64,000 nt of DNA from Ulota crispa (lineage: Eukaryota > Streptophyta > Bryopsida > Orthotrichales > Orthotrichaceae): positions 436,501 to 500,500 of the forward strand of contig OY987251.1 in the NCBI GenBank assembly GCA_963920765.1, written 5' to 3'. The notes below the pieces were generated by a model. The model saw only the letters and a program-made list of their open reading frames with translations, had not been told where the DNA came from and searched no databases. Below are positions 11,061-30,459 of this stretch, in pieces; within the stretch, counting starts at the first letter, position 1, and the number at the start of each line of letters is the position of its first letter. Both the position numbers and the translations under genes were made by a program.

Positions 11061-11075
11061 CTTTGTATGACAACA

Positions 11076-11129
11076 ATGCTAAGGTCTAAGCGGGGAGCAG
11101 TGAACGTTGAGCGACAAGCAATGAGTGGT
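11076..11129 (+). repeat. Left terminal inverted repeat with heptamer periodicity
   Basis: It pairs with the reverse complement of 29,625-29,678 without gaps (12 differences in 54, mostly transitions). Inside it 7-bp words of the type CRRTGAG or CGTTGAG recur head to tail. Confidence 0.8.
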
Positions 11130-11376
11130 TCATATTTGAGCAGTAAATTTTACATATTTTCGTGAAATAATGGATTCTCGTGCAATAAATGTTGCAAGTG
11201 TAATTTGAAAGCTGATAATTGGTTTAGAGAATTTGATATTTGTTGTGCAATAACTAAGAAGTGAAGCACAAATGATTATAAACCAAAGGTTCATAAAGCA
11301 AAAGTGGACGCAAAAGTAGTAAATTGGAATTTGCCTACAAATCAAAAGTGCTATGACCCTAGGAGAGATAGATAAA

Positions 11377-11541
11377 ATTCATCCACAAACAAAAAACATT
11401 TGTCCACTAACAAAAATCATTCATCCATGAAAAAATTCATCCATCCATGAATAAAAGTCATTCATCCATTAACAAAATTCATCCATCCATGAATAAAAGT
11501 CATTCATCCACGATCTAAAGACATTCATCCTTTCATTCACT
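11377..11541. repeat. Left subterminal ATTCATCC array
   Basis: ATTCATCC and close variants recur about eight times, at irregular spacing of roughly 15-30 bp. The same word on the same strand forms the right subterminal array at 29.37-29.47 kb. Clustered short words near transposon ends are typical transposase-binding candidates; that role is inferred. Confidence 0.75.
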
Positions 11542-12059
11542 TAAGAATTGTCCAATGGATGATGAACAAAGACGATTTAGAGATAAATATAACCACAATC
11601 ACTCAAACATTATGAAGAATGGTAGGAGGAACTCAATTGTTAGGGGCTTAACATGTTGACTTCAAATAAATATAGAGACATTTGATATGCCAATATGAAT
11701 GAAAAAACTAACGACCCTCCTCACATTCCGAAATGGCAATGATTTGTCACCTTGATCAAATAGTATTAACAGTATCTTGTATATTCATGCTTTCCATATA
11801 AAGGTTAATAATTCATGAATAATGATATCAGCAAGATCATAGGTCCAAATAAAGAACTGCAATATTTTATAAATGAGAAGTTCAAAACTAGGTACACATG
11901 AGCCTCCTTGGAATTTGATAAGGGAAAAAGTGAGACAATAACAATTTCACTATTGAACCTAGCAAACCCACATCAAAACCTAGGAGGGCATTTGGAGGCT
12001 GACAAAAAATTTGAACTTGATTAGTCCGTTACTTACAGTGGTCTACTCAAGGAAGTGCA

Positions 12060-13065
12060 CTCCCACTTTGGAGTAAAAGAAGGCTTACTCCAACAACATC
12101 ATTCATACACAAATTCATTTGTGGAACCAAGACACTCTCTTCGGAAACAAGAAGGTCAAACATTAGGTTTAGATCCAATTTGTATTTAAGCTGTGTCCTA
12201 CTTTTGAGTGTCCACTATTTTTAGATATAAGCCTCCTCGGAATCCAAGGAGGGTTACCCCAACAATATTAATTGTACACAAATTCAATTGTGTAGCCAAG
12301 ACACTCTGCTTGGAACCTTGAAGGTCAAGTGAAAGGTAATATCCAATTTGTATATAAGCATTGGCCAACTTTTGAGGGTCCACCATTGTTATTTATAACC
12401 CTCCTGAAAATCCGAGGAAGCTTATGCCTACAATAATAATCCAACACAAATTCAATTGTGTAGCTTAGACACCCTCCTCAAAAACCCACAAGGTCAAATG
12501 AGAGGTCATATCCAATTTGTATATTAGCAATGACCTACTTTTGAGGGTCCACCATTGCTAATTATAAGCCTCCTCAAAATCCAAAGAGGCTTACCCCAAC
12601 AATACTAATCATACACAAATTCATTTCTATAGCCAAAACACCCTCTTCAAAACCCAAAAGGTCAATTGAGTGGTAAAATCCAAATTGTATTTAAGCTGTG
12701 ACCTAATTTAGGGTGTCCACTATTGCTAGATGAAAGCCTCTTTGGAATCCAAGGAAGCTTACCCCTACAATAATAATCCAACACAAATTCAATTGTGTAG
12801 CCTAGACACCCTCCTTGGAACCTAGAGTGTCAAATGAGAGGTCATATCCAATATGTATATAAGCAGTGACCTACTTTAGGGAGTGCATTATTGCTAATTA
12901 TAAGCCTCATTGGAATCCAAGGAGGCTTATCCCAACAATTCTAATTATACACAAAGTCATTTATGTACCCAAGAAACCCTCTTCGGACCCAAAAAGACCA
13001 AGTGGAAGGTTTGATCCAATTTGTAAACAAGCAAGGATCAACCTTTAAAGGTCCACTAATGCTAA
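12060..13065. repeat. 168-bp tandem array, about six units
   Basis: The word ATCCAATTTGTAT (or a near copy) recurs at 12,173, 12,341, 12,510, 12,678, 12,846 and 13,014, a strikingly constant 168-169 bp period. Each unit also has ACACAAATTCAATTGTGTAG, AAGGTCAA, GGGTCCACCATTGCTAATTAT and the near-palindrome GCCTCCTCGGAATCCAAGG. It fills the region downstream of the transposase gene's 3' end. Confidence 0.92.
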
Positions 13066-13272
13066 TTATATAAAATCAAAGGGCTATCTTTGAAATTTGA
13101 GAAGGCCCATGTGGACACTTAAGGAGAAGCAACACAAGTTCTGAAATATTGAGGAGGTTCAAGTGCATTACATAAATATCTGGGTGATATAATAGGGTTA
13201 TAGGGGGGGCAAGCTACGGCGCCCTCTTAAAATGTCAACTGAACGCCTTTAACTATAATGTTTGTTTATCCT

Positions 13273-16200
13273 CTACAAATCACTATTATTGAGAAGTATC
13301 TTCACCTCATCAAAACAAAGGTTGGCTGCATGAATGTACTTGTCTTCATCATGATTGGCCTTACAAAGAAACCTAAATACATAGTAAAGATGTTTACAAT
13401 TTACCCAGCACTTCCTTTGACCAAGGGATGCTGTCTTCATAGTGGTGAAGTCTTCACAGGTACATGATGGGAAATTCGAAATAGTGATGCAATAAGTCTT
13501 TTGGGATGGATAAATTCCTGACTGCAATGTAATTACTCTACCATATCCAAGATATGGTATCACAACTACAAAATCTATTGTAGCTTTCAAATTACAAGCA
13601 TTGTCCCATTTGTTTTTATGCTCAACAGTTGGCACATTAGGGTTTCTTCTAATAGTTCGTCCAAGCCGTTGAGTTGGGTAAGTACTTCCACCAACATGTT
13701 CAACATTTTCTTCAATTGGCTTTGGGTTAAACAGAGTTGGGCCATCACGGTTAGCAAAATCCTCAAAAAGATTCATTTTTGACCCTTTTACAGGTTCTGT
13801 TTGCAATTGAAACCTAGCTTCCTCCAAAGATGAGATTGCAGATAGATTGAGCTTAATCCCATATGCATTTGGCCATACTTTTGGTATTGCTGGCCAATCT
13901 AGAATCCAATTGACCTTACTTCCTCCTGCCCACCTTTGGAGATCATCCGCGCAACACCAAAAGTCAAAATTGACAATGGTCCTTGAAATATACTCCGTCA
14001 TTTGCCCACTGTATGTAGGTGCTATAGTCTTGGCTTTCTTTTGCTTTTTTATCTTAGTGCCACAATTTTTCTTCATCCCTACTTGCACTCCGTGGCATGT
14101 CTTTGTTTCCTTCATACATCTTGCAATATGCCACAACTTTGGATTAGAATGTGATTTGTGTACTTTTGCTGCATGAGGAGGCAACCCGCTTCCTTTGCCA
14201 ATCTCACTTATAGCAATAAGAGTTGCTTTGGCCTCCAACCAGGCTTTAGTTGATCTTGTTTGTACTTTTGGAGCTGAAAAGTTGACTTTATTGTGGCAAT
14301 GCGAGTTGCCGTCGAATCCTAGAGGAATGTCCAATTTTTGGTTGGTCGAACCAAACACCTCCTGGACTTCAAGATGAGGGATTTGTACTATGAATTGATC
14401 TACATTTGGAAGCTTAGCTACGGCTTTTGCAAACATAGTTGGATTTCTGCAATGTCCTACTGTACAAAGACGGAGCTCGTCGAATTTCAGACTAGTGCCA
14501 GAAGAAAATCCTTGTAGAAATGTCTAGTAGTTTGTTGATTGTTGCATAGAACGCACCATGTTGTCCGTTGTAGCAACGTACAAGCACTTTCCACGCTTGT
14601 CGGACATTTGTTGCCATTTGTTAGGGACTGTTTCAGCTCGATTATACATGGGCATTTCAGCTAGCTCTTCCAAGTATAGCTTCTGCATTGATAGTGTGTG
14701 GATAGTTGGTTCAAGCAATAGCAAAAGGGAAGAACATACATATGACATTCATCAAAAAATTTGGAGCAAAAGTGCAATCTATTTGACAATTGACAGCAAT
14801 TTCAAAAGAGCAGTACAGAATTGGATGGAATAAATGAATGAACAATCAATGGTAAAAAGCGTACTTACTAACTCCAAGAAGCCTCTCCATTGCCGATAGC
14901 AAAAGTGCCAAAAGCCCAACCAATCGTCCAACTCCCAAAGAGACTCCTCTGATGCTGCTCTTGAAGATAGCCACCCTGCCTTTATTCCCAAATACCTTTC
15001 ATTTGCTTGTAGCATAGTCTTGGCATCTTTGTATTGCTTCCATAATTGTTTATGGGCATGACAAAACTCCGTGCAAATGAGTTTATTGGTATGCTGATTC
15101 AGTGACGTGGTCCAATGCAACAAGCACAAGCATTCTCGGTCAATCATTGGTTCTTGCTTATTTCCATTGCCATAAACCACTCGAACTCCGTGCCAATTGG
15201 CCATGGCATTGTCTGCCATAAAACCTTTGAAGTACATCTTCCTAATGCCATGGTGCACCATTACAGAGTTTATGGAAAGCCACATTTGTGTTTGCAATAG
15301 AGCATCTTTGCTCATCATATTGCAAACACAAATGGTCATGACACGGCAATATTCAGTGTCATACACATGGGCAGCCATAGTTGTCCACCCTTTAACCCTC
15401 TTGACGTGGTCAAACATACACCACAAACTTTGCAAGTCTCCTTTGAGTTGCATTTGCCTAACTCAATTGGCCCCGCTCTTTGGACCATCCTCTGACATTT
15501 TAAACAAGTACACCTTATCTTTCCCTTGACCTGGAAACATGCTAGCTTGGATGAATGAATATGTACTCTTAAGCTTCAATGTAATAATGTTATCAATAGG
15601 CCCACCGCTAGTACTATTCTTGAACTTAGAAATTCTGTTCCTAATGCTTGGAGAGCTAAGTTCTCAAAACCTGTCCATGACATCAACTAGTGGTTCACCT
15701 CTTAATGGTTCTCTAATATTGTGCTGCCCCTCCTCATAGAATAACACTGTGTCCAAAAACTCTTTACATGCACCAAGTGCAATTGCTAAGTTCTTGGCGG
15801 TTGGTGTCAAAGAGATCTGATGCTCTATCAGGTTTGAGGTGAGCTCAATGGAATCTTGACAAATACCCTTACCAACTGGATGGGCATGTGTTCCCACATG
15901 AATACATGCCCTAGGTAAACCTAAAGAATTAAGAATCCTGTACATACAATAAGGGCAAGGCAATTTGCAGGAAGGAACAATTTTACAAATCTTGCAAACT
16001 AAATTGGATTTCTCTAGACACATGGCACAAAGAGCAAAAACCAATGGCAAAAATCTAGTCTACTCAATTTTGTTTGGCTGCCCTCCACGCAAGGCTCTTA
16101 GGCAATGGACATTCAAGCAAACTTGGTGGCCAACGCAAAATGAGTAACGGAACTTCAGCCCAAAGTCGTTGGCAATATTTGTGGTGTGGGTATGGGTCCA

Positions 16201-17172
16201 ATTATGAGCATCATACTTCCTATCCACCCCTTCTAGTTGGTGACCCACGTGACTGCTAGAGTTTGATCTCAAAGATGGTGTAAAGGAAGCAGATGGCAAC
16301 GAAATTGGAGGCAATTTGAACATAATATTGCCATTGAAAGATTGGGGGGGGTGACGTACTGATTCACACACAATTGTGTCTAAATCTAGAAGTTTTAGCT
16401 TGTTTCTAGCACGCGGACGGTTCTGCAAATCTTTAAGGCACTGTTGTATGGAAATGAACCCCTCAACTTTAGGATGGATCAGTGGTGGAAAAAAACTACT
16501 TGGAGTATTTTCCGTAGGAAAACATGGAGTGGAGCTATTTTTGGGAATTAGAGATAGGAAACCACTTCTGCCATTGGTTATCACTAAGTCGTCATCCAAT
16601 GATTCAACCAGTGAAACATAAATGTGATCAGCAAGGTAAACTAATTCACAAGCTCCGCACAACATTGGAAGGGTAGAAGTGGCTGAACTAGGTGTCAACT
16701 TCAAAGGGGTTATATCCTGCACAACCGCGGAATTGCCAAAGGCATGATAGTTGCTTGGCCTAAGCTCCCACCCTTGTCCAATAGGAGTGTAAATCTGCAA
16801 GCGCAAGATAGTAGGAATGACTTGAACCCCTTTTGCATCAAATAGTTTATCTTCTACCCAAATTGTGTTCCTATCAAGGTGGAAGCGCAAGCCTAAAATA
16901 GAAGCTGGAATCCAAGCAACGCCACTTGCAAAATAAGGAAACAAAATTGGAATAGCAGCGCCATTGCCTCGAACAGAGGCCATCATCATACTCAGCAACA
17001 ACCAAAAACAACAAAACAACAAATGATGAGAGATTATTGAGCCAAAACTTGAAGTTCTTGAATGGTAAGGTGGGGTGAGGATGACACTAACAACAATGTT
17101 GCAAGCAATAAAGATAGTGCCTTCCAACGTCAAGCAGCAAAATCCAATATAGTGATTTAGTTTTGATTTCAA
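13273..17172 (-). pseudogene. MULE-type transposase with SWIM zinc finger, decayed by stops
   Basis: Minus-strand gene of two exons, 17172-14869 and 14682-13273, with an intron of 186 bp (GTAAGT donor, TGCAG acceptor, phase 0). The start is uncertain; the ATG triplet run near 16,989 (MMMASVRGN) is a candidate. In order it shows a Cys/His-rich segment (LVCKICKIV, CPYC, then CIHVGTHAHPV) like the GCM/WRKY-type zinc fold of MULEs. Then comes a DDE-like core with VYDTEY, FKGFMADNAMANWHGVR and the C-x2-H of CLLHW, a tryptophan-rich stretch (WLGFWHFCYRQW), and a C-terminal SWIM finger (SCTCEDF ... WVNCKHL, about 13,380-13,470). The reading frame stays the same throughout but is stopped four times (TAG 16,060, TGA 15,664, TGA 15,463, TAG 14,524). 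All four can come from C-to-T change of CAG or CGA, as expected from decay of methylated DNA. It would bind the element ends and catalyse transposition. Confidence 0.8.
14683..14868 (-). other. Intron of the transposase gene
   Basis: On the minus strand GAGTTA is followed by GTAAGTACG, and the next coding block begins after ATCAATGCAG. The coding frame continues across in phase 0 (GFLEL to KLYLEE). Confidence 0.75.
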
Positions 17173-17300
17173 AATAGATCACTGGCAATACATAGGGGTA
17201 CTGAACATAATTGGCACTTCAAATAGTACGGTATGTAACATGGTAAATATTATCCCAAAGGTCTTCTTAGGTACATACAACGGTTGGAATTTACCCATCC

Positions 17301-18137
17301 ATAGTATATAGTGGGATTGGAAAAGATTTTGTTCACTCCATTGTAATAGTCAAATGACTTAGCAATTTTCTCAAATGCAATTTGTATTTTTGTATCTTGT
17401 AACGCTAAGCTTTAATTCATACACAATCCAAATCAATTGTACCAAATTTGAGTTCTAGAATGTCAAAATCCTATTTTTGGTGAATTAAATTACATAAAAT
17501 TCATGGTTTTACATGATAATTGATTAAAATACATTGTTGATGAGTTTTTGAGCTTTGATTGCATGGATATGTAGGAAACGTCCATGTGCACATCTTTTTT
17601 TCTAACAAAGATCTCCAAAAAGTTTGTAGGGTCTTCCTAAAGAGAATTTAATGTTGAAAAGATCATAACCAACTTTTAGTAAAATAGATACTTCTTTATG
17701 GTGATTAGATTTTGCAAAATGACTCATCTAATCACCATAAAGAAGTATCTATTTTACTAAAAGTTGGTTATGATCTTTTCAACATTAAATTCTCTTTAGG
17801 AAGACCCTACAAACTTTTTGGAGATCTTTATTAGAAAAAAAGATGTGCACATGGACGTTTCCTACATATCCATGCAATCAAAGCTCAAAAACTCATCAAC
17901 AATGTATTTTAATCAATTATCATGTAAAACCATGAATTTTATGTAATTTAATTCACCAAAAATAGGATTTTGACATTCTAGAACTCAAATTTGGTACAAT
18001 TGATTTGGATTGTGTATGAATTAAAACTTAACGTTACAAGATACAAAAATACAAATTGCATTCAAAAAAATGCTAAGTCTTTTGACTATTACAATGGGGT
18101 GAACAAAATCTTTTCCAAACCCATTGTATAATAATGC
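17301..18137. repeat. Large foldback element (arms about 410 bp, loop about 15 bp)
   Basis: The left arm (about 17,301-17,710) is repeated almost perfectly as its reverse complement (17,726-18,137), joined by a short loop around TTTGCAAAATGACTC. Outer ends read AGTGGGATTGGAAAAG on the left and CTTTTCCAAACCCATT on the right. No coding capacity. It is a MITE-like foldback inserted between the two divergent transposon genes, just upstream of the transposase start. The high arm identity suggests it is young or kept alike by conversion. Confidence 0.95.
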
Positions 18138-19233
18138 TGCAGCAATTTTTAATGGAAGTAACTTGGTAAAAAAAATAGTTGCAGGTCATGTTATGTGAAA
18201 TTGTTAAGGGCAGCCATGATTATTCATTCCAGCTATTTACCAACTAGATTGCCGCACCTTGCGCGTATCTATCATTTTCGGCTTGAAATCAATAAGATTT
18301 TCCTATAGAAATTAATTAATGTCTAGGAATTGCGCACTCCTATACAGAGGGCAAGCCAAAGAAATTAAATCATCTTTTGCTACGGAGAAGGGTTGTAGCA
18401 ACTTGTGTTTGGTTGTGTGAATGATGGTCTGAAGCAGTGGTTTTTCATAAGTTTAGGAATGCAGGAGATACCACATAGAGCAAGATGGAAAGCCAGCTTT
18501 AAGTTTTGCACAAGGAAACAATTAGCACAACCTGCCATGTCTTGTCGTTCCCAAAGGGCGACTAGAGCCCAAACTAATAGTACAATTCAGAAACTATCTT
18601 ATAGGAAGTAGAAGATGAGAGGTCAATGATTTAGATTCAAGTGACGTGTTCATGCTGCTTGCCCAAAATTTGGATGCTGCAGGCTGATACAATGGCGCAG
18701 CTAGTCAATCTGATGATACGATACAAAAATGACTTACTCTTGCCTTGTTACCTTTGATATTTAGCTTATCACTGTGTGCTTTGATTTAGGTCATATTTTT
18801 GTGACGCCTTTGCAAAATCTTTGGAAGTTTATTGTGGCTTACACCTCATACACTAGCCAAATGATATCACCTTGCTAGTTACTGACTGAACAATTGTTAT
18901 GGTAGTTGTCTTTAGCATCAGATGTCAATTTAGCACAACAACATGTTCAGTACTTACTTGAGTAAAACTTTTTTGCTTTAATATTCAAATCTAGAAGTAA
19001 CAATGACATAAATCTTGACAAGCTCCACGGGAGAGAAGTATCCCATATTGTTGTTTAAAATCGTCAGGAATATTAATGTACTTGATGGCGCCAACTTCTA
19101 GAATATTGTGTCATTATGACCTGACAATACCTTTTCCGTACGCGCTTTAATCGTGGGTCCTGTCAACTTTTATTTCAAAATGAAGATGTTTACTGAGCTT
19201 CTATCCAACCTACGAATATTTTGGTGCCACTTG
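18138..19233. other. Region between the divergent transposon genes
   Basis: Together with the adjoining foldback this is where promoters of both genes should lie. I cannot point to a specific TATA box or initiator. A short plus-strand open frame (18,405-18,611) is rich in basic residues but has no motif; it may be an upstream exon or chance. Confidence 0.4.
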
Positions 19234-19437
19234 CTCATGTAGTGCTTGAGCTTGTAACCTTGCCGCTTAATCGGCTCCGTCACGCTCATCTTGTGCCTGC
19301 GCTTGCAACCCTGCTGCTTGATTGACTGCAGCATGCTCATCTTGTGCTTACGCTTGCAACACTCTCGCTGGTTCATCCATCACTTGCTCTTCTTGTGCTT
19401 GCGCTTATTGCCCTTTTGGTGGCTGGATTAGTGATTG
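19234..19437. repeat. 51-bp minisatellite, four units
   Basis: CTCATCTTGTGC-type starts occur at 19,234, 19,285, 19,336 and 19,387, exactly 51 bp apart. Because 51 is a multiple of three, the minus strand reads as 17-residue repeats (CKRKHKMSMLQSIKQQG and variants), but no gene context supports translation. Confidence 0.9.
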
Positions 19438-22400
19438 CGCCTTTGTCCGTGCTTCAAGAAGGCACGATTAGGTCATTAGATTTCTTGGTCTTAGATGCGA
19501 TGGATGGGACCTTCAAGTTCCTCTCCCCAAAATAGGGAGCTTCATTTCTAAAGTTCACTTTGTGTGTCTAGTTGACTTTAGGGTGTGCAATTTCCTTGCA
19601 TCCTTGAATACTGATGTTCATTTTAAAAACACTTGATTTGAACCCTCAAATTCTCAAGATTTAAGGAACAAACTTTAGCATTATCATCCTACAATGCTGA
19701 AGATCGGGCTTTTTTGTGTTTGCGCTTAAATCATTGAGTTGCAGTTGCTTTTGTGTTACTGATCAACAACAAGAGCTATATTGGATTGGGTTACATTTAC
19801 TTTATTCTAATCTATTTTTGGGTCCGGGTTGCTGAGAATGGCAGGAGAGGCGAGTTCAGTAGGTGGGCCTCGTCAGGGAAGTAGCGGTGAAGATTCACAC
19901 CCTCCAGGGTTGCGGTTGGCGAGTCCAAGGTCTATCAACGAAGACGTTGTGGATCTCAACGAAGACAATGTGCCGGAGGTAAACCAACAAAGCTTAATGG
20001 AGTGTGCCAAAAGATTGGGCGGCGACGGAGAGAGAGGCATTCAGATCCAACAGCTCTGCAAGCTGTGGTGACATCCACCTCGATAAGTTTCTAAACCCTA
20101 CAAACTTGATTTACTTTAATTGTTCCCAAGCTTGTAGAACATTTTGCTGAATCTGCTCAAGCATATAATGCAATAGTACTATGTTACCTGCAACAAACCG
20201 TAAGGGCTTACATGGTATGAGCATTTAATTGGCGTTAATGCAATCAAAATGAATCAAAGGACTTTCCAGATTAGGATTCACCATTTGCAGAGAACAGCGT
20301 TAAGCATCTACAATCAATCATTCAAGCTATTACGTAATTGTCATCTATCTAAATTATTCAGTAAAAAGCGGACAAAAAAAGCAATTCACTTTAGTTGCTA
20401 TGCATGTAACATTTGTAATATTCTTCCATGTTTGCAGGGTCCAAGTGAGGGCAAGAACATGGAGATTGCAAAGTTAACGCAAGACAAAGCAATTGACAAG
20501 TTTTGGCTAGACTCCTTGATGACTACAATAGCATACTCAAGTCAATTTGATTCAAGCTTGCAGATTCAACAAAGTTTGCCATTCCTTTGTGTAGGATGTT
20601 ATCCTTGCCTTTAGTGAGGCCAATGCTTGAAAAGGACGTCATTGCTCTAGAGAGTGCTTTTGCGCATGGCTACAGCAAAGGAAGTAGGGTGATGTTTTCG
20701 TCACCCTACAATGACCAGGGCTAGACTCAGTTAGTGACAGATGACATAGTGAAATCGTGGGATTTACTTTGGGTCATTGAAAATGAGAGGTTTGAGCTTC
20801 AGCTCCTGAGCCATCTCCATAGAAAGTGTCTCAACGGTTTGATGTTCTACGTTTGGGATGGCAATCATTGGTTAGCAGCATGGACTAGTTCCATCTAGAA
20901 ATTGAAGAGCATGGAACGCGCATGGCACTACTAGCCTAAGTGCATTGTTATAGACACTAGGGGCTGCGCTGCATTAGCAATGCACATAATGAATGATGTG
21001 AATTGGTGAGTATTCCATATCCCCCAACTAGAGTCAAATGGATTGTATTGAGTGTGTTTCAAGGTACTTTTGAAATGTGCAATTAGCTCCAAGTGTTATG
21101 TATATGTTTGGGCAAATTGTTTTGGAAAGACAAAATCTCATCAACTAGTAGCTACTTGGTTAGTTACATTAAGCAACGCATACTACACTTGTGAAGTTAC
21201 CATTGATCTTGTTAAGTGGTTTCTATTTTTCAGCTCTACTAAATATGGGCACGTCACGACCAACCTTGTCCATCGCATTTACAAAGTAAATACTTACAGG
21301 TTGCTCAAACTCAAGGATTTTAAGGAGCTCCTCATTGCTAAAGAGTACTGTATGTGTCAAAATCGGAAGTTAAAGCCACTGCAGTGGCATCCCTTGATTG
21401 CTGAAGTCTTTATTTGCTTCTTGCACAAAGTAAGCCATGTTCAGCTTTGGTGCATTGTATGGAGTGCAGTTTTTCAATGTTAGAATGAGTCCATGCTAAC
21501 TTTTGATGGTGGTTGTTGCAGCAAGAGGTCACCGCAGCTGCCAACAAGGCCGCGGTTTCATACCGAAAGAGTGTGAAACTAGAGGATCAAACCGCAATTG
21601 GTGTTCACAATGCCATGGCACTTGCAATAGCAGGCAAAGTTAAGTACTTCAAGACTGACTTTGATAAGATTATCGGCGTGGCAAATCCAAAGCATGAAGC
21701 CAGGTGGTTGGAGGAGGTTTGGTATTCCTAGTCCAACGACTTTAATTTACTTAACATTTTGTCTCTTGGTTTCATCTAATTAATGCAAACCATTTTATAA
21801 AACATGCTTCTGATGTCTTGGCCGCAACTTGAAACTAGGTTACACCCAAAAGGTAATTAGTAGAATATAAATTGGATCTAGGACCACATATCACATAAAT
21901 GTTTTGACTAGTTTATTGCTTGGGTCATTTGACACACTATATTAGACTAGAAAAGGGCTGGGCATAGAATGTTTCAAGTAACGTGTGAGGCCCAAAATCA
22001 CTTATAATCATGCAACATTACCTTCTTAGATTTGGAAGTGAAACCTAATGGTGAGTTCAATTTTGTTATGCAAATATGAAGTTCACACATCCATTCTATT
22101 AAATCAGTATGTAGTTGAGTAGTTTACTATTTAGTCAAACCTGTCAATTCATAACCAAAACTCAAGATGGTAAACAATTTTTGTAATTCAGTGATTCACA
22201 CTTTCAAAAAGTGGACATGTATACTCAACTGGGAACCAAGTATGCAATTAGTGACCCTTTGTAGAATCAATAATATCCTAATAATACCTTGGACCTGTTT
22301 CACATTACAAACAATTGGTGACCAGTACTCCATTAATATTGACAAAAATATATAGAACCTCGATCACCCAAATTTATTTTTGATCCTATATCAACCTTCA

Positions 22401-22478
22401 TGATCACAGATTGAAACGTCAAGGCAAGATGTAGGTCCGTAATTGAATCTGAATTTTGAGTTTCTCTTGACAAATCAT

Positions 22479-23360
22479 ATTCCAAAATTGTCCTAAAAAT
22501 GTATTTTGGAAGCTTAGTGCAGGATTTTGGTCTGGTAATTAAATTATTCTTTGAGTTTAACTAGTGAAAACATATTCCAAACTGACCTTTGAGAGCCAAG
22601 CTTGGAACTTAAGAGCAGGTTGAGGGTACTGTAATGAATTGTTTGACCAAATTTTAGATGTCAAATCAGATTCCAATTTTGCCATCGGGACACTAGGTCG
22701 GAACTAGAGAGCACGTTGAAGGATCGGTTTGCAATTTGTTGTCCTAATTTTAGCTCACAAAACATATTCAAACGTTGCCTTCTTGACCCTAGGTCAAAAC
22801 TTGAGATCATGTTCAAGGACTAGTTTTGAATTTGTGTCTTAGTTTCAGTTGATCAAACAGATTTGAACTTTGCCTTCTCAACATGAGGTTGGAACCTAAG
22901 AGCAAGTTGAGGGTCTTGTAAACAATTTGTTATCTAAATTTTAGTTGATAAATTAGATTCCAAATTTGCCTTTAATACACTAGGTTGGAACCTAGGAGCA
23001 TGTTTAATGACTAGTTTCAAATTTGTGTCTTAGTTTCAAAATTGTGTCTTAGTTTCAAATTTGTGTCTTAGTTTCAATTGATAAAATAGATTTGAACATT
23101 GCTTTCTAGATACTAGGTCAGAACCTGAGAGCATGATGATGGACCAAGTTCCATTTCGTTGTCCTAGTTTCAGTTGATTAATCAGATTCCCAATTGACCT
23201 TCAAGACCCTAAGTTGGAACCTAGGAGCAGGTTGAAGTCCAGGTAATCAATATGTTGGTTGTCTTTAACTTGATTTTACAGATTCCAGACTGGCCCTTCT
23301 TTCACTAGCTTGGAACTTGAGAGGCAAGTATAGGCCCAGTACCAATTGTGTTGTTTATGC
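22479..23360. repeat. 96-bp tandem array in a cargo-gene intron
   Basis: The word CAGATTCCAA or a variant recurs at 22,479, 22,574, 22,670, 22,766, 22,861, 22,957, 23,090, 23,186 and 23,282. The spacing is 95-96 bp, except one 133-bp step where an 18-bp word (TTAGTTTCAAATTTGTGTC) is repeated three times. Each unit also holds GGTTGGAACCTAGGAGCA and GTCTTAGTTTCAGTTGAT. The array lies between the coding blocks ending 21,731 and starting 24,386. Confidence 0.92.
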
Positions 23361-23788
23361 AAAACTTAACCAGTTTTAAGTATTTTTAGGCACCTTATCT
23401 TTGATACGGTGATATGTAAGCCCAGAAGGAGGAATAACGTTTAAAACAGGTCAATTATCTAGTTTATAATCATTTGGAGTGCAGAAATGACGTTTGAGGC
23501 GTCACATTTTGATAAAAATGAAATGCAAACTGTTGGTTGGATGCCTTGATTGAAACCTAGAGTTTTCTTGAACTGATTGTTTTGATTCCTTAAACGCATT
23601 GTTCTTCCAAATTTCGAGCTAGATTTGTATAAAAAAACGCTTTTGATGGTTTGGCTTAGCCTTTACTAGAGCATAGTGATTCTGTCAGTAGGCCTTCAAA
23701 GTTGTCATAACAAAAGGTAAAGTGTTCCTTCCAAAGGCTTATTGAAACCTAGAGGCAGAAGTTCTAAGTCATTTTAGTTTTAAAGGCA

Positions 23789-23811
23789 GCCTCCTCGGAT
23801 TCCAAGGAGGC
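23789..23811. repeat. 23-bp near-palindrome copy in the right half
   Basis: GCCTCCTCGGATTCCAAGG and its end AGGC form a nearly self-complementary word. Other copies are at 24,169-24,191, 28,096-28,118 and 28,376-28,398, and once per unit of the left 168-bp array (for example 12,231-12,252). Confidence 0.8.
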
Positions 23812-26800
23812 TACCAACCTACCCATGCCTTGACATTGTTCTAATTCTACTACAAGTAATTAGAATTGAGTTGAGACCCTACATTCACATGTTGGAACCT
23901 GGAATGATAAAGTTAGCTCAAGTGTGATTCTGTAGATGCTCATTTCAACCATATCAAAACTTATGTAATGGCACAAAAACTCCTAGAAAACTCAGTAGGC
24001 TTTGCTAATTCACATGAGATGTCAACTTTATAGCTTTAGGAATTTAAAACAAGTTGTGTTTTAATATCTTGCCACCTTGCTTGGAACCTAGACCAATTCT
24101 CAATTTTCTATGTTGATTTTGTATTGAAGGATGCCAAACATAGCATAGCCCAATAGTTGTAATAAGTAGCCTCTTTGGATTCCAAGGAAGCTGTTGCCAG
24201 AGGCATTCAACTGATTTTAATTAATTTAGGAGTGTGTTTGGCTTGCTAGTGCTTACGCGGCCTAGTACTCCTACTTCAAGATTGCTAGGATTGCTATCTC
24301 AACTCTTTAGATATAGGTCATGTTGAATACTAACGGACAGAATTATGTGTTGAATTTCTCATTTACCATTTCACTTTTTTTGCAGATAAGGAAACACTAG
24401 GAATTCTATGAGAAACTAGACATGACGCTTGAGAAGCTTCAGATAATATCTAGAGCTTGTACAATTGGTGGTTACAAAGCTAGGTGGTTATCCATTTGGA
24501 ACTCTCCTTTACTTAGCCGCATAGCCCTGAAATTCTTGCATCCTACAAAGACAGAGGATAAGATCAAGCAGTGGCTACACAAGGTGGTTTTTTGGGTTGA
24601 GGTGCAATTTTTATATACAAACTTGTTCATTTCTTGTACTGCCTTTGTTTTTTTGAAAAAAGTACATGATTTATCCTTATCAATTCATTTGTTCCCACGA
24701 TTTGGTTCAGTCTAATGATAGTTGTTGCTTATTATGATTTCTGGATTTATATGCAGCACACTTTCTTTTAACTAATATCTTTCTCTAAATTATGATATTG
24801 GTCTAGAATAGGAATGGTGTACTTGTGTATGCTCTCTTTGAACATTGAGTATGGTGTATAGCTTGAAGAGCATTCCAGTGTATTGGTGAACTCAACATTG
24901 ATCATTGAGGGGATTGCTATTAATTGGGCAGTGGACAACTCTTTGTGTACAACACCTTTTTTGGGAAGAACGCAACCTACAACCGCACCAAAGACTTCTT
25001 GACACAAGATGGCACAGAGATGGCTATGCAACAAATTGTTTACAGGTAACATCAGTATTATTTTGCAAGTCTTGCTATTCTAATATCTTAGAAGAGATTG
25101 TGCCCATTATATTACTTATTTCATCCTTTCAATTCTATCATTGTTGAACCAAGTAATACCTTATTGGACTTCAAGTACTTTCATTGGGAACTAGTCCTTA
25201 AAAAAGGCATCATCAGACATGATGAGCCAAAAATATTTGAAGCGTGGACAGACAAGTATATGGACACGTGCATCTTTACAGATTCCCAATTTTGAACCTA
25301 TAGTCAAACAGAGATCTTAACATGTCATTAGTACTTGGAATGTCAGAAGAATTATGTTGTTGCAATTGAAGAAGAGGAAAAGAAGGTTGCTTACCCAGAA
25401 TATGCAGCTGCCTCTAACGAGGAAGGGGCGCAGGAGGTGCAAAAGGCACTAGATGTACAAAACATTCAAGAAGTACAAGGCAAGCAGGTTCAGACTACTA
25501 CAGGGACAAGTCAGCCAAAGAAGAAGGTGGTAAGAAAGAGGACTCCAATTCATCAAAGACAAACAAGCGCGCGGCAAGCCGCAGCGGTTGCGAAGGCTGC
25601 TTTGTCACCTGTTGCAAGTGCTCCCAATGAATTTGCATCCAAGGAGCAGGCCCCAATCCAAGCTTCAGAGCAAATGCCCAAATTTGTACCTTCATAGTGG
25701 GAGGCTGTAGCATCCCTTGCAACAGAGACTCTAGTATTCACGCCAACTGCATTAATCATGGAGTACTCAATCCAAGAGGCCATTGATTACCGTGCCAAGA
25801 CTAAGAGGCAGCCTGATGAGTAGCTATAGATGCTAGACTTTGCTAAGAAGGTAAGGTAGATTTGATTATATTGACCTTAAACTTTACTCCTTCACTCTCT
25901 CAAAATGACACCATTGCCCTAAAAAATTCTAACTAGATGAACTCCTTTTGTTTCAGGTTGGGAAGGGACGACCACAAAGCCTAGGAGGAATGCACAGTAG
26001 GGATGCTTGCCTAGACCTTATCATTGGCAATGTACCAGACGGCCTCAGCGTGCCAGATGTATCTAACCCGCCTTTGTCAGTCCCATATTGGAACATTCAA
26101 TATCCACTCTTTGGTGAGCATGTGTTTGATTTTGCAAACAGGACATTGCACAATGATGGAGTAGTGCTATTGTTTGTACTAGAAGATCCTACCATCAAGA
26201 AGAGTATGAAGAAATAGGCCAAAGAATACCGTTACAAATGCTTGAAGGAGTTATGGGGTGTAAATGATCTTTTTCTCACTTCATATAGCAACAACGACCA
26301 AACAGATAATATTTTAGGAATTTGTCTTGATGTTCTTCAAATTGTGGCTCTTTCTAATTTACTTACTGACGTCCAACCCTAAATTGCATAATAAGTGCTT
26401 TTGGATTTGTGTTTCCGTTCAAGTGATGCTGAATGAAGTGACCATAGAATCAAAGTTCTCCATCAACAACAACAGAGAGGCCATTGGCCTTGACACCAAT
26501 GTTTTTGGCAAGTATTCGTATGCCCTAATTGTATTTTTGAAAGTCCATATATGAGTTCATGAAAACTTCAAGCATGAATAACCTTTGTGCGTTTCATGTA
26601 ACTACCGATCCAATCAATCTTCAAAAGATTGCTATGAGCTTGAAGTCTAATTCCATATTATAACTTGTATAATTATGCAAGTGAAGGACTTGAGCAGAAC
26701 TTTCTACATGCTAGGAATCAGCTAATGAGAGGTGATGTGCCATGGCGTGGGACTTGAGAGAAAGATACACTATTCTTGCAACTTCTAATTATGAGCTTTT

Positions 26801-28095
26801 CAAGGCCCAATGATGTTATGTTTGAGTGCAACGCGTCTACATGTATTTGTGATAAAATTCGTTCCATGTAATCAAATCAATCTCCTTCCCAACAACTAAT
26901 TGTGAGTATTCTGTTTCAAGTTGTACTGCCTAAGGTCTTCCTCCTTATATCTATACTTCAGCCCTGCCTTCTCATGAATCAAGCACTGTAGTGAATGGAT
27001 CTCGAGGATTTCATAAATGTGATTATAATGAACAAACCCTAGATCCTTTTGCTCTTTATGTTAATGTGCCAAATTACCACATGTTCGAACATAGATCTAG
27101 AGTTACATACCTCTTTGACTGATTTTATTTGATTACCAAGTGGCAGCATTCATGCTTGTCAACGCAGTGGTTGACATATCATTGCTCTTGAGTCCGACTC
27201 ATAGATTTTTGAAGGTGTCTTGAAACATCTGATACCAAGGTTGTTAGTTGGTAGTTTAAGGAAGATCAAGTGCAAAATGATTGTGTCGTCAAGCAAAGAG
27301 GAGTCTAACAGTCCTGTTAAGAATGCTCCCAAGAGTCAATTTTGTATGTAAGTGCATTGAGTTTAAGATTAATCAATTTGTAAAATGCTAGTAACTTGCT
27401 AGCAAATTTACAACATCTTAGTTTTTTTAACACTTTACAATCCTTTTTCCAGGCTTCTAGATTTGGTTAGCAACTCACCAGAAACTTGGGTGATTCCAAG
27501 TTATAATGCCCCTCCTGCTACAACCCCCAAGCAAGACCCATTTAGAGTGCCTGAGATTGGACCTAGGTACATGTTAGGTGTTCTATAGTATATTGAGCTA
27601 GAGGCAATTGAAGGTAGCCCAGAGGCAAATCCGGACCCGGAATTATCTACTTCCAGCTATGGAGGGTCATGCTAGATAGGGAACCACTATATTTTAGCCC
27701 ATGTGCTTCCCGGTCTTATCAATTTCTTTTGGTATGTTATCAAAGTTTCCTATTTTGGGTTTAAGTTGATAATGTTTGTTTACCCATTACTCTCTTTCCA
27801 TTTCTCTTTTTCTATATAAACTACAAGTGCAAATGTTTGTTAGGAAGCATGCGAGAGCTTTCAATTAACTACCATCATATATATTATCCTTGATTATTAC
27901 AGTTTAATCTGTGCTTCAGGTTGAATTTTCATATTCAAAGCACCAATCTTTCTGAATTGAAATTGAATGATTAAGGCAAGAAACCTACAGGTTAGCATTT
28001 CCTACTGAAGAGAACCATAGACCCTTAAAATCATAATACAAATATCCAAACCCCGTATAATTAGATATAAATAAACACCTCCAGGTCAAATAAAA

Positions 28096-28118
28096 GCCTC
28101 CTCGAATTCCGAGGAGGT
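28096..28118. repeat. 23-bp near-palindrome, best-preserved copy
   Basis: GCCTCCTCGAATTCCGAGG followed by AGGT is almost a perfect palindrome centred on GAATTC. It belongs to the same word family as 23,789 and the left-arm array. Confidence 0.8.
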
Positions 28119-28727
28119 TCCACGGTGCTTTACAAATTTGTTGTAACTCATATTGGTGCCTCCAGGTTCTGAGAAGGCCCTTAGCATGCCAAAACTGATT
28201 GTGTAAGTTAATCAATCTTTCTATGTTTCCTTAAGGATCTGGTGTACTAGACCTCAGTTGTTATAATTGTGTTTATTCTAGATGCATGTTTATGTTTCCC
28301 ACACACTTGCTCTCACTTGTACAACAGCAAGTCATGTTTAAGGCTATTTTCATTTGGAGCTTATGTCTTCATTAGGCCTCCTCAGATTCCGAGGTGGCTG
28401 GTTGGCTATTCACGCTTTCATTGGACTCCCCTCTGTATCCCTTCAAGTTTCGAATAGGGTCCACCAACAACCTAAGTAATTGTGCAAATGATGAAACCCT
28501 GTCAAATGAGCCTAGCCTTATAGTTGTGAAAATATTAGTGCATCAACGCCTGGTTTTCTATCCAAAATTGCTCAATATATTCAAGGGTGAAGTAAATGAA
28601 TTTCAGTACAATCATTAAATGACTATAAATTGGGTGGTCCCAGTCATAATTTGTTGTACATTTGCTTGTTTGCCAAATGTGATGATTTAAAACTGTTGAA
28701 GTGTTTTACGATAATCAGGTGATTATT

Positions 28728-29020
28728 ATTCAATTCTGTTGTTCCTAAAAATTTCTTAAAGTAGACATGCTATGGCTCTTTAAAACACATGATTTAATGT
28801 GCAATCTCTTGTTTGCTAAATGCCCTAACCTAACACTCTAGAAGTGTTCCAAGATCACAAGAAGTTTATTATTCAATTCTGTGGTTTCTAAAAATTTCTT
28901 AAGGTAGACATGCTTTGGCTCCTTAAACCACACAATTTAATGTGCAATCTTTTGTTTGCAAAATGCCCTAAACCTAAGACTCTAGAAGTTTTCCAAGATC
29001 ACAAGATTTTTATTATTCAT
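28728..29020. repeat. 143-bp tandem repeat, just over two units
   Basis: ATTCAATTCTGT occurs at 28,728 and 28,871, with the decayed next start at 29,015. Each unit continues with CTAAAAATTTCTTAA and TTTAATGTGCAATCT. It lies in the right arm, beyond the cargo gene. Confidence 0.88.
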
Positions 29021-29369
29021 CTATTTTGCGCCTAAACATTACTAAGAGAATATTTTCTTTGGCTTACATGCCTATTAGAAATTAGCAATGTGACTTATCC
29101 TATAACCGTTGACAACAAAGTTTGAACATTGCCAACCTTATCTATTGCATTTTTGAAAAATGCTACATAAAGTATTTGAACTAGACCCCCATTCAAAGTT
29201 CCCACTCAACATAATTCTTTACACTAGATTTGTTTTCCTTGTATAAGTTTGTGCCTTTGCGACTTTGTTCCTAATCATATCTTTTACTAAAAGTGTAATG
29301 TTCTATCATTCTTCTTTAACACCTCACCCTCTAAAATCACATTACCACTGCACTGTATTTCTCCCTTTT

Positions 29370-29466
29370 ATTTTCATTCATCCATATTAACTTTCATTCA
29401 TCCATACTAACTTTCATTCATTCATATTCACTTTCATTCATCCATTTTCACTTTCATTCATCCATA
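29370..29466. repeat. Right subterminal CATTCATCC array
   Basis: TTTCATTCATCCATA-type units of about 21 bp repeat five times. They match in word and strand the left subterminal array at 11.38-11.54 kb. Confidence 0.85.
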
Positions 29467-29624
29467 TTGATTCTGCGTATGTTCAATGCACTAGATGATT
29501 TTTGAAGTTCATCCTCAACAATATAACCATTTTGATAATGTTTAGGACTACTTGTGATAGTTATTAAAGTACTATAATATCATTTCCAATTTGCAATTTG
29601 TATCATAAACATTGCCCACCGCTC

Positions 29625-29678
29625 ACCGCTCATTGCTCAACACTCAACGCTCATTGTTGCCCACTCAGACTTTAGCAT
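29625..29678 (-). repeat. Right terminal inverted repeat
   Basis: This is the partner of 11,076-11,129. Read on the minus strand it begins ATGCTAAAGTCTGAGTGGG and then runs through head-to-tail heptamers (CGTTGAG, TGTTGAG, CAATGAG, CGGTGAG). Confidence 0.8.
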
Positions 29679-30459
29679 ATTTGCTCCTACTTTCATTCAA
29701 CTGATTTTCAATCTCCATTCTCTTTTCATTCTCTGAGAAGATGTGACTATCCCTATTGTTCATTGAAGTTTCATTCTTGGAGAAGGTGTGACTGCCCCTA
29801 TTGCAAACTTCAAAGGTGTCCGTCAAGTTTTTTCTTTTAAAATTGTCATTTTTTTACTTTTAATTCATTTACTTCTTTTCATTTCTTTTTGCTAATGGCA
29901 TGTTTGTTTGCAAAGTTCCACACCCATTGAACAATTGGAATGCTAGAAATTCATATTGGTAATTGCCCTTATAGGTTTCAGCACTGCCATCCTCATTTTT
30001 GTATGGAACTTCAAACGAGTTGTGAAAAGTATATTTTCAACTATATATTATTGGCCCCATTTGGAACAATATGTAAAATTAGTTTTGAAAGTTATAGATT
30101 GTGTCATAAAACAACTGACCTTCTATAGCTAGTTACCACCAACCATTGTATTTGGCCAAGTTCTTTGTCCATACAAACTTCTTGAAATACTTGTTTTGTT
30201 CTTAGATCATGCTGGGCCAAATTTTCCTTTTAACTTTTTTGGTAATTAGGAATTAACTTCATTCTCAAACAACTAATTTTTGGCAAACTAATAAAGTATA
30301 AAATACAATAATGAATTAAAGAATAAAAAACCTAGTTTTGCATTATACTAGATGCTCAAAATGCACACTCTTAACTTTTTTCAATCTCTATCTATCTAAA
30401 CATGGTTTTATCTCTTAAACATTTCAACAAACAAATGAAGTTAGGTAACAACAAAATGT
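29679..30459. other. Intergenic DNA between two transposons
   Basis: No gene is supported. Near 29,730-29,805 a stretch with GAGAAGRTGTGACT and CCCTATTG is present twice about 48 bp apart. The rest is unstructured AT-rich sequence. Confidence 0.5.

Follow-up and report, generated by a model that had tools for sequence, protein, structure and literature searches.

A two-gene transposon in Ulota crispa

The window analysed here, a stretch of 64,000 nucleotides from Ulota crispa (contig OY987251.1, positions 436,501 to 500,500), contains a two-gene transposon, an observation that our analysis confirmed. After outward extension of its ends, the element occupies window positions 11071-29683 (18.6 kb) and carries two divergent genes, a transposase gene on the minus strand (~16989 to 13273) and a partner gene on the plus strand (19838 to 27675). 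Both genes contain in-frame stops in the window copy. The features are as follows.

11071..11129, plus strand: left terminal inverted repeat of 59 bp, identical to the right end at 45/59 positions
11377..11530, plus strand: left subterminal array, ATTCATCC units in ~21-bp steps
13273..14748, minus strand: transposase exon 2 (start approximate), with candidate E (NLAETVHNKW) and SWIM-type CTC...CKH
14869..16989, minus strand: transposase exon 1, with N-terminal C/H motif, D (FDHV), D (MADN) and CxxH (CLLH); donor GTAAGT from 14868, start codon guessed, in-frame stops in the window copy
17302..18133, no strand: nested foldback repeat between the genes, outside the coding system
19838..20070, plus strand: partner N-terminal exon (end approximate)
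20438..21005, plus strand: partner ParB-like exon, RPV...GY...DGNHR motif, AG/GT borders
21230..21730, plus strand: two partner middle exons (~21230-21430 and 21522-21730)
24385..24583, plus strand: partner middle exon
24900..25045, plus strand: probable partner exon, reading frame uncertain
25155..25850, plus strand: partner linker exon
25957..26315, plus strand: partner methyltransferase-like exon (end approximate), degenerate motif IV (LDLIIGNVPDG)
26424..26515, plus strand: partner short exon (borders approximate), VMLNEVTIESKF...FGKY
26683..26847, plus strand: partner exon with degenerate motif I (borders approximate), EKDTLFLQLLIMSFSRPNDVVFDCNAST in the consensus of the copies
27453..27675, plus strand: partner last exon and stop
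29372..29468, plus strand: right subterminal array, with CATTCATCC every 20 bp, oriented as the left array
29625..29683, minus strand: right terminal inverted repeat, matching the left end

An earlier note on this DNA had placed the divergent gene pair between 54-bp inverted repeats, and this was borne out, as positions 11076-11129 match the reverse complement of 29625-29678 without gaps at 42/54 positions, while 54-mers drawn at random from the window, in 100,000 pairs, matched at 14.7 positions on average and at 31 at most. The extended ends agree at 45/59, and the inverted repeats are therefore imperfect and 54-59 bp long. The note's further observation that both subterminal zones share the word CATTCATCC also stands: there are four copies near the left end and four near the right, and the word is nearly absent elsewhere in the window (none on the plus strand and one on the minus strand in the 45,387 bases outside the element). 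Arrays lie by both ends in all seven copies read. The inverted repeat between the genes was considered as a functional hairpin of the element and rejected, since it is one of an abundant family of foldbacks, with 2970 candidates on a first look, of which 40 were scored.

Target duplications of 9-10 bp were found in four of the five independent insertions with both ends read, where copies A (the window copy), B and C count as one insertion because B and C are segmental copies that share A's flanks. The duplications match at 9/9 positions in copy D, 9/10 in E, 8/9 in F and 9/10 in I (the last by eye), and in all four their distance from the ends is constant to within a single base; none is present at A, B or C. 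These lengths fall inside the 8-11 bp range described for MULEs (PMC6446971), and terminal inverted repeats are present, as in the MULE superfamily.

Copies, gene pairing and selection

Queries with the ends returned 16 rows for the left end and 41 for the right end in the host genome. Opposed ends at most 50 kb apart form nine element-sized pairs, with 16.5-45.5 kb between starts and one left end serving two right ends; one further pair, 3.0 kb apart, has no gene matches. In six copies besides that of the window, both genes are enclosed by matching ends, and the 5' part of the transposase gene, in the stretch equivalent to 15850-17708, is absent from copy B. The partner is found divergently upstream within 20 kb at 101 of the 124 transposase places (random placement, mean 1.4), with no partner match within 20 kb at the other 23. 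The order transposase, ParB-like part, methyltransferase-like part is kept in 56/57 places with both partner parts, and nine compact pairs have no ParB-like match of their own.

The earlier note had joined the two genes by position, orientation and terminal repeats, and had called for a genome search with the ends and the transposase. That search yielded the nine end pairs, the divergent layout and the duplications in D, E, F and I. With the partner divergent at 101 of the 124 transposase places and both genes enclosed by the ends of the six further copies, the assignment of both genes to one element now goes beyond position. The note had also named ends without genes, and genes that never occur together, as observations that would speak against it. 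Such ends do exist, as 26/41 right-end rows have no gene match within 30 kb (gene-less or undetected relatives), but the pairing of transposase and partner is strong.

Purifying selection has acted on both genes. The median dN/dS of the ParB-like exon is 0.20 at dS 0.4-0.8 (29 pairs) and 0.16 at dS 0.8-1.5 (19 pairs), and the transposase core gave a like value of 0.20 at dS 0.4-0.8 (17 pairs). Captured fragments are described as frequent in plant MULEs (PMC13317346), and the partner could in principle be a passenger of this kind, taken from host or foreign DNA; this selection, together with a pairing that reaches relatives with only ~30% identity in the partner, contradicts such an origin and makes it highly improbable. 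Because the partner has been kept by selection and about 100 back-to-back relatives of the pair exist, it probably helps the transposon to persist in its host. The copies also show an excess of C-to-T changes at CG (7.4%), CAG (7.2%) and CTG (8.5%) relative to CHH (3.0%), deamination footprints at CG and CHG from which it follows that the host methylated these copies in the past.

A putative MULE-like transposase

The earlier note's description of the transposase as MULE-like is supported but not proven. In its favor are a SWIM-type motif, a CxxH motif and long target duplications; recognition by the Pfam MULE model did not follow. The candidate catalytic residues of the D-D-E and CxxH motifs are conserved at 18/20 (first D), 13/20 (second D), 20/20 (both C and H of CxxH) and 22/27 (E, with seven copies represented twice among the 27 rows). 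The SWIM-type cysteines of CxC are kept in 23/24 each, and the CxH residues in 18/20 and 19/20 (some copies counted twice).

Perhaps the transposase belongs instead to an unrecognised superfamily that shares the SWIM-type motif and long target duplications with MULEs, a possibility that is compatible with any reading of the partner and that we regard as somewhat unlikely. None of the 74 genome matches of the MULE profile PF10551 is found less than 20 kb from one of the 124 transposase places, and the transposase consensus has no Pfam match, MULE or SWIM, both of which would fit a separate superfamily. Against it stand the 9-10 bp duplications, the invariant CxxH, the SWIM-type cysteines and the placement of the SWIM profile PF04434, for which 3 of 53 genome matches, each below the cut-off, were located 1.4-2.1 kb downstream of transposase cores in three relatives, at the position equivalent to exon 2, with 0.06 expected by chance within 5 kb. 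The KDZ profile PF18758, with two matches in the genome, matches none of these loci. An AlphaFold model of the transposase core was poor (pLDDT 41.8), and Foldseek on that model returned no match at E <0.001. Sola1 elements make a short target duplication of 4 bp, which differs from the 9-10 bp seen here.

The partner protein, its possible role and known systems

The earlier note had called the partner ParB/methyltransferase-like, and the two halves of that label fared differently. A methyltransferase-like domain, akin to DNA-methylating proteins of bacteria and bacteriophages, is moderately supported by sequence comparison: in collinear order, two partner exons can be matched with motif IV and then motif I of the N6/N4 DNA methyltransferases of phages, and no column shuffle scored as high (0/150, 0/100 and 0/100). 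The hhalign probabilities are low (7-19%), and without one divergent relative the methyltransferase-like exon scores 21.4, barely over the transposase control at 20.3. The profile PF01555 has no match over its cut-off in the whole genome, and two of its seven sub-threshold matches fall in the partner genes of two relatives, both at profile positions 164-195, where ~0.03 would be expected by chance placement. Motif I had been sought in exon 24900-25045, a placement dropped since exon 26683-26847 aligned to this motif.

The ParB label applies at the level of one short motif, the DGNH residues of which are kept in 17-19 of 20 loci. A ParB fold is conceivable; PF02195 has no match over its cut-off in the whole genome, the hhalign profile test failed (23/150 shuffles as good), and the AlphaFold model of this exon is poor (pLDDT 36.3). 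Neither the partner nor the transposase has a significant, consistent match in Pfam or by PDB sequence search, the ParB-like and methyltransferase-like consensus segments have none in NCBIfam or PHROGs, and tblastn of both segments against phages gave rows only at E 1 or worse. Single rows such as those for Toxin-JAB1 (E 0.0025, 1/15 members) and Denso_VP4 (E 0.012, 1/11 members) were taken as chance.

Our preferred reading, to which we give about an even chance as a whole, is that the family consists of large MULE-like DNA transposons with two genes, by now decayed, and that the partner, which combines a ParB-like segment with a methyltransferase-like domain, marks or protects the DNA of the element. 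The transposase would move the element and make the 9-10 bp duplications, and the divergent gene would yield an accessory protein that most likely binds the element's own DNA, perhaps at the CATTCATCC arrays, with their 20-21 bp spacing, close to either end. So marked or protected, both genes could stay free of cytosine methylation by the host for long enough to allow transposition, and the partner, although a different protein, would act as VANC does in VANDAL elements. The partner is probably an accessory factor, either VANC-like or DNA-marking.

Alternatively, the partner may be a working enzyme, an N6-adenine or N4-cytosine DNA methyltransferase that deposits a base mark on the element, as was suggested for the Ectocarpus protein, rather than a VANC-like binder. 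Layout on the strands, size class and a presumed division into two parts are shared with Ectocarpus Sola1-1_Ec32, and motif IV precedes motif I as in phage Javan316. Enzymatic activity is nevertheless doubtful because both motifs are degenerate (NVPD or similar at motif IV and DCNAST or similar at motif I in the seven copies read; DMPK at motif IV in one distant relative), and we consider this reading unlikely. The direct arrays near both ends, and the retention of the partner together with the transposase, would also suit an accessory of transposition itself, resembling the mudrB product of MuDR and acting in end binding, bridging or integration without an epigenetic role. A role of this type would not need methyltransferase-like similarity, and we judge it rather unlikely.

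A VANC-like or DNA-marking partner invites comparison with several known systems. Unlike MuDR, the 18.6-kb element has divergent genes, a different partner and no Pfam MULE match. As with mudrA and mudrB, a transposase is accompanied by a second element-encoded gene, and the target duplication is 9-10 bp (PMC6446971). A ParB-methylase is also discussed in PMC5512222. In the ParB-methyltransferase of Streptococcus phage Javan316, a ParB segment likewise precedes the methyltransferase and motif IV precedes motif I, but that protein is short, of a bacterial virus and has an intact DPPY, whereas our partner gene has many introns, its motifs are degenerate and its ParB part is putative. DNA-methylation genes are further described on retrotransposons, with cytosine methyltransferases in Symbiodinium and the charophyte K. 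nitens, in the latter under selection, and adenine methyltransferases in DIRS; these differ from the present element in being retrotransposons with C5 or Dam-like enzymes (PMC5890265).

The only anti-silencing genes of plant transposons that we know of are those of VANDAL. In the present family, the conserved partner is a different one, both genes are under selection, the arrays are candidate targets, and past methylation by the host is on record. VANC is described as binding tandem arrays of short motifs (PMC10398659), and VANDAL and Hiun elements with vanC share with ours a MULE-type element, an extra gene, non-coding tandem arrays of short motifs and plant cytosine methylation as the opponent (PMC10398659, PMC6446971). 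Compared by description, the partner here differs from VANC in its methyltransferase-like appearance, and its anti-silencing role would be a proposed one.

The earlier note had suggested an undescribed system, a claim that has to be withdrawn: the giant 21.5 kb Ectocarpus transposon Sola1-1_Ec32 is reported to carry a ParB and N4C/N6A methyltransferase gene on the strand opposite its transposase, the product of which was suggested to bind the transposon's own DNA and to mark it, and comparable proteins are noted in transposons of red and green algae (PMC12477816). The element is a variant of this reported type, with the partner, as described there, inside the element and opposite the transposase. 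It departs from that brown algal Sola1 element in its SWIM-type transposase and 9-10 bp target duplications, and in that the domains recognised in Sola1-1_Ec32 are here an unrecognised ParB part and degenerate methyltransferase motifs. A protein class noted so far in algal transposons (PMC12477816) would thereby extend to a plant, in which the question of whether ParB-methyltransferase accessory genes protect transposons would become testable. Only tentatively would we suggest that a land-plant MULE-like lineage independently recruited, or inherited, a gene of this type, which is now a dead-enzyme, sequence-specific anti-silencing factor that reads the 20-21 bp arrays. If so, unrelated superfamilies (Sola1, giant algal elements and MULE-like elements) would have arrived by convergence at a single kind of accessory protein of prokaryotic type.

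Copies of the element, their ends and target duplications

The two-gene transposon proposed in the earlier note belongs to a real, large and old family, in which the partner gene is under selection. The 54-bp inverted repeats claimed for its ends are identical at 42 of 54 positions, against 31 for the best of 100,000 random pairs of 54-mers from the window.

11071-29683, window copy of the element (copy A), ends set by the terminal inverted repeats

A search of the host genome (275 Mb, 157 contigs) with these ends, which the note had asked for, yielded nine element-sized end pairs of 16.5-45.5 kb. Queried singly, the left end gave 16 matches and the right end at least 41, with 40 of 106 right-end candidates scored. 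A transposase match lies within 8 kb in 13 of the 16 left-end cases. Among the 41 right-end matches listed, 15 have a gene match within 30 kb and 26 have none, and thus gene-less or much diverged relatives probably exist. One further end pair, 3.0 kb apart and without a gene match (C1:17276960-17280056), is likely a non-autonomous derivative.

Reading at sequence level covered copies A to F and I, seven of the nine. Flanks are common to A, B, C and a fourth left end, L008, which are therefore segmental copies of one insertion. The four lie at C10:30167-56902, C10:447576, C6:104817-123472 and C10:15750460 (L008), and for three a contig end is no more than about 125 kb away, pointing to segmental and perhaps subtelomeric duplication. 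In copy B a second right end lies 10 kb from the first.

In window positions, homology runs from 11071 to 29677-29678 in D and F, spans 11070 to 29653 in E, whose right end is about 21 bases shorter, and spans 11108 to 29677 in I, whose left repeat is altered. All four of these copies carry a 9-10 bp duplication, placed equally far, to within one base, beyond the conserved ATGC and GCA(T/A).

Target duplications, with matching positions
Copy D: GCAACAAAC, 9 of 9
Copy E: GTGTTCACAA, 9 of 10
Copy F: TTTGAGGAG, 8 of 9
Copy I: TATGGGGAGT, 9 of 10, by eye; the script's best match lies a few bases off

Of 5,000 random flank-pair draws, 197 gave a chance match of 8 or 9 of 9 positions at some point in these windows, and 2 of 20 mismatched left-right flank pairs reached 8. 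No target duplication was found in A, B or C (best 6 of 9). Counting these three as one, four of five independent insertions read at both ends have a target duplication.

Divergent pairing and the transposase

Protein queries from the family identified at least 124 transposase, 127 ParB-like and 100 MT-like (methyltransferase-like exon) places in the host genome. These counts, obtained after removing split secondary rows from 151, 147 and 103 raw matches, are lower bounds, scoring having covered 150 of 190, 150 of 178 and 139 of 139 candidates, respectively. Transposase and cargo do occur together elsewhere, as 101 of the 124 transposase places have a divergent ParB-like or MT-like place within 20 kb upstream, against a mean of 1.4 and a maximum of 5 under random placement (200 trials; contig sizes partly estimated). 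The nearest ParB-like place is divergent in 89 cases, convergent in 0, on the same strand in 1 and absent in 34, and the nearest MT-like place is divergent in 68, convergent in 2, on the same strand in 0 and absent in 54. Viewed in reverse, a transposase is present for 89 of 127 ParB-like and 69 of 100 MT-like places. Of the 57 places at which both partner exons were detected, 56 keep the order transposase, ParB-like, MT-like.

In nine compact pairs, only 1.6-2.0 kb separate transposase and MT-like exon; within 20 kb upstream, eight have no ParB-like place and the ninth has one at 11 kb. These pairs, in none of which a ParB-like exon belonging to the pair was detected, are a second, smaller subfamily.

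Compact divergent pairs
C5:8400366, C2:6137660, C1:23588928, C11:3903134, C1:34336017
C2:16876313, C11:2960274, C8:4385096, C2:15187922

A Pfam search of the transposase gave no consistent match among members and none for their consensus, and none of the 74 genome matches to the Pfam MULE model (PF10551) falls within 20 kb of any of the 124 transposase places. By eye, the protein has an N-terminal C..C and H...H.H, D, D, CxxH, E and a C-terminal CxC...CxH, the second D being kept in only 13 of 20 loci. Of 53 genome matches to the SWIM model (PF04434), three, all under the cut-off (E 2.7-6.4), sit 1.4-2.1 kb downstream of transposase cores on the same strand, where 0.06 are expected by chance within 5 kb, and 15 of the 53 have a Pfam MULE match within 5 kb. 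The transposase looks and behaves like that of a MULE and is a putative member of that superfamily.

Selection, host methylation and the partner gene

The transposase gene has two exons and encodes about 1,200 amino acids. The partner gene is split into about eleven exons, most of them with a conserved frame; the frame of one exon is uncertain. Coding regions of the copies read are decayed and contain stops. Across pairs that are not independent of one another, median dN/dS drops as divergence rises: in the ParB-like exon from 0.35 at dS below 0.4 to 0.20 at 0.4-0.8 and 0.16 at 0.8-1.5 and above (105 pairs from 15 of the 20 loci fetched, 39 saturated); in the transposase core from 0.55 to 0.26, 0.20 and, in three deep pairs, 0.09 (13 of 20 loci; 78 pairs, 45 saturated); and in the MT-like exon from 0.45 to 0.26 (5 of 7 rows, 10 pairs). 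This is the pattern of genes selected while their lineages were active and decaying after insertion.

The copies also show an excess of C-to-T change at CG and CHG sites, the mark that methylation of the plant type leaves there. Where at most one aligned copy deviates from the majority, the rate is 7.4% at CG (132/1,775), 7.2% at CAG (97/1,352), 8.5% at CTG (103/1,209), 4.8% at CCG (24/499) and 3.0% at CHH (965/32,243); A/T transitions stand at 1.3% and transversions at 0.7 to 1.4%. The residue following DGNH in 20 loci (R 7, Q 6, W 6, L 1) shows the R/Q/W spread expected from a decaying CGG codon. Together with the composition of the genome, these traces suggest a land plant as host.

Of the ParB/methyltransferase-like label given to the cargo, the ParB half is not established: the exon aligns with eight phage ParB-type proteins and Spo0J at the DGNHR motif only, with a score reached by 23 of 150 column shuffles. 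The methyltransferase half has moderate support, from shuffle tests and sub-threshold Pfam matches. Together with one divergent relative, L063, the MT-like exon aligns with nine phage methyltransferases over 64 columns, DLIIGNVPDG falling on DLxxTDPPY, and scores 25.0 (21.4 without L063, a value with no shuffle comparison), where the best of 150 shuffles reached 21.9. Controls on these references score 15.6 for the ParB-like exon and 20.3 and 17.6 for the transposase exons, the first of which is 776 columns long. A second partner exon, aligned separately, matches the stretch that leads into motif I, with SRPNDVVFD falling on KKGDRVLDS and a score of 23.9, the best of 100 shuffles reaching 18.4; the search for it was not blind, having been prompted by the Pfam N6/N4 matches. 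When both exons are combined, the alignment stays collinear across 155 columns and scores 25.3, the shuffled maximum being 21.9. All seven genome matches to the N6/N4 model (PF01555) are sub-threshold; two lie in partner genes (about 0.03 expected), one of them 0.5 kb downstream of an MT-like place and the other 3.8 kb downstream of a ParB-like place, each covering profile positions 164-195. The alignments suggest a methyltransferase-like partner with motif IV before motif I, both degenerate; hhalign probabilities are low (7-19%), and support therefore stays moderate.

Subterminal repeats and relation to known systems

All seven copies read carry CATTCATCC near both ends in a single orientation. 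At the left there are 1-4 units, 307-452 bp in from the end and spaced by about 21 bp or multiples of it; at the right there are 2-6, 214-314 bp in from the end and spaced by 20 bp or multiples of it. Each copy has one additional inverted unit in its interior. The spacing of two helical turns suggests a bound protein. VANC, the anti-silencing protein of VANDAL elements, binds tandem short-motif repeats, and methylation is lost (PMC10398659).

17302-18133, foldback repeat between the two genes, 346-bp arms, 98% complementary

This foldback belongs to a family with 2970 first-look genome candidates (40 scored); copies A, C, D and E have both arms, B has one, and F and I have short traces. A short palindrome-like word, AGCCTCCTTGGATTCCAAGGAGGCT, recurs with variants at 11898, 12077-13070, about 23790, 24168 and 28090, both in non-coding parts and inside a 168-bp tandem array on the downstream side of the transposase.

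MULE groups are known to carry extra ORFs, for example a SET domain in Phytophthora (PMC6446971); the word methyltransferase is absent from that paper, which is also not one of the three papers found to contain MULE, ParB and transposase together. Methyltransferases occur in retrotransposons (PMC5890265). In the open-access literature searched, we found no description of such a partner gene in a MULE or a land plant. The suggestion of an undescribed system has to be given up, as this kind of partner is already known from algae: for Ectocarpus Sola1-1_Ec32, PMC12477816 reports a gene with ParB and DNA methyltransferase parts, encoded on the other strand from the transposase. What sets the present variant apart from the algal ParB-methyltransferase accessory genes is its MULE-like carrier, a host of plant type, degenerate motifs and the number of copies.
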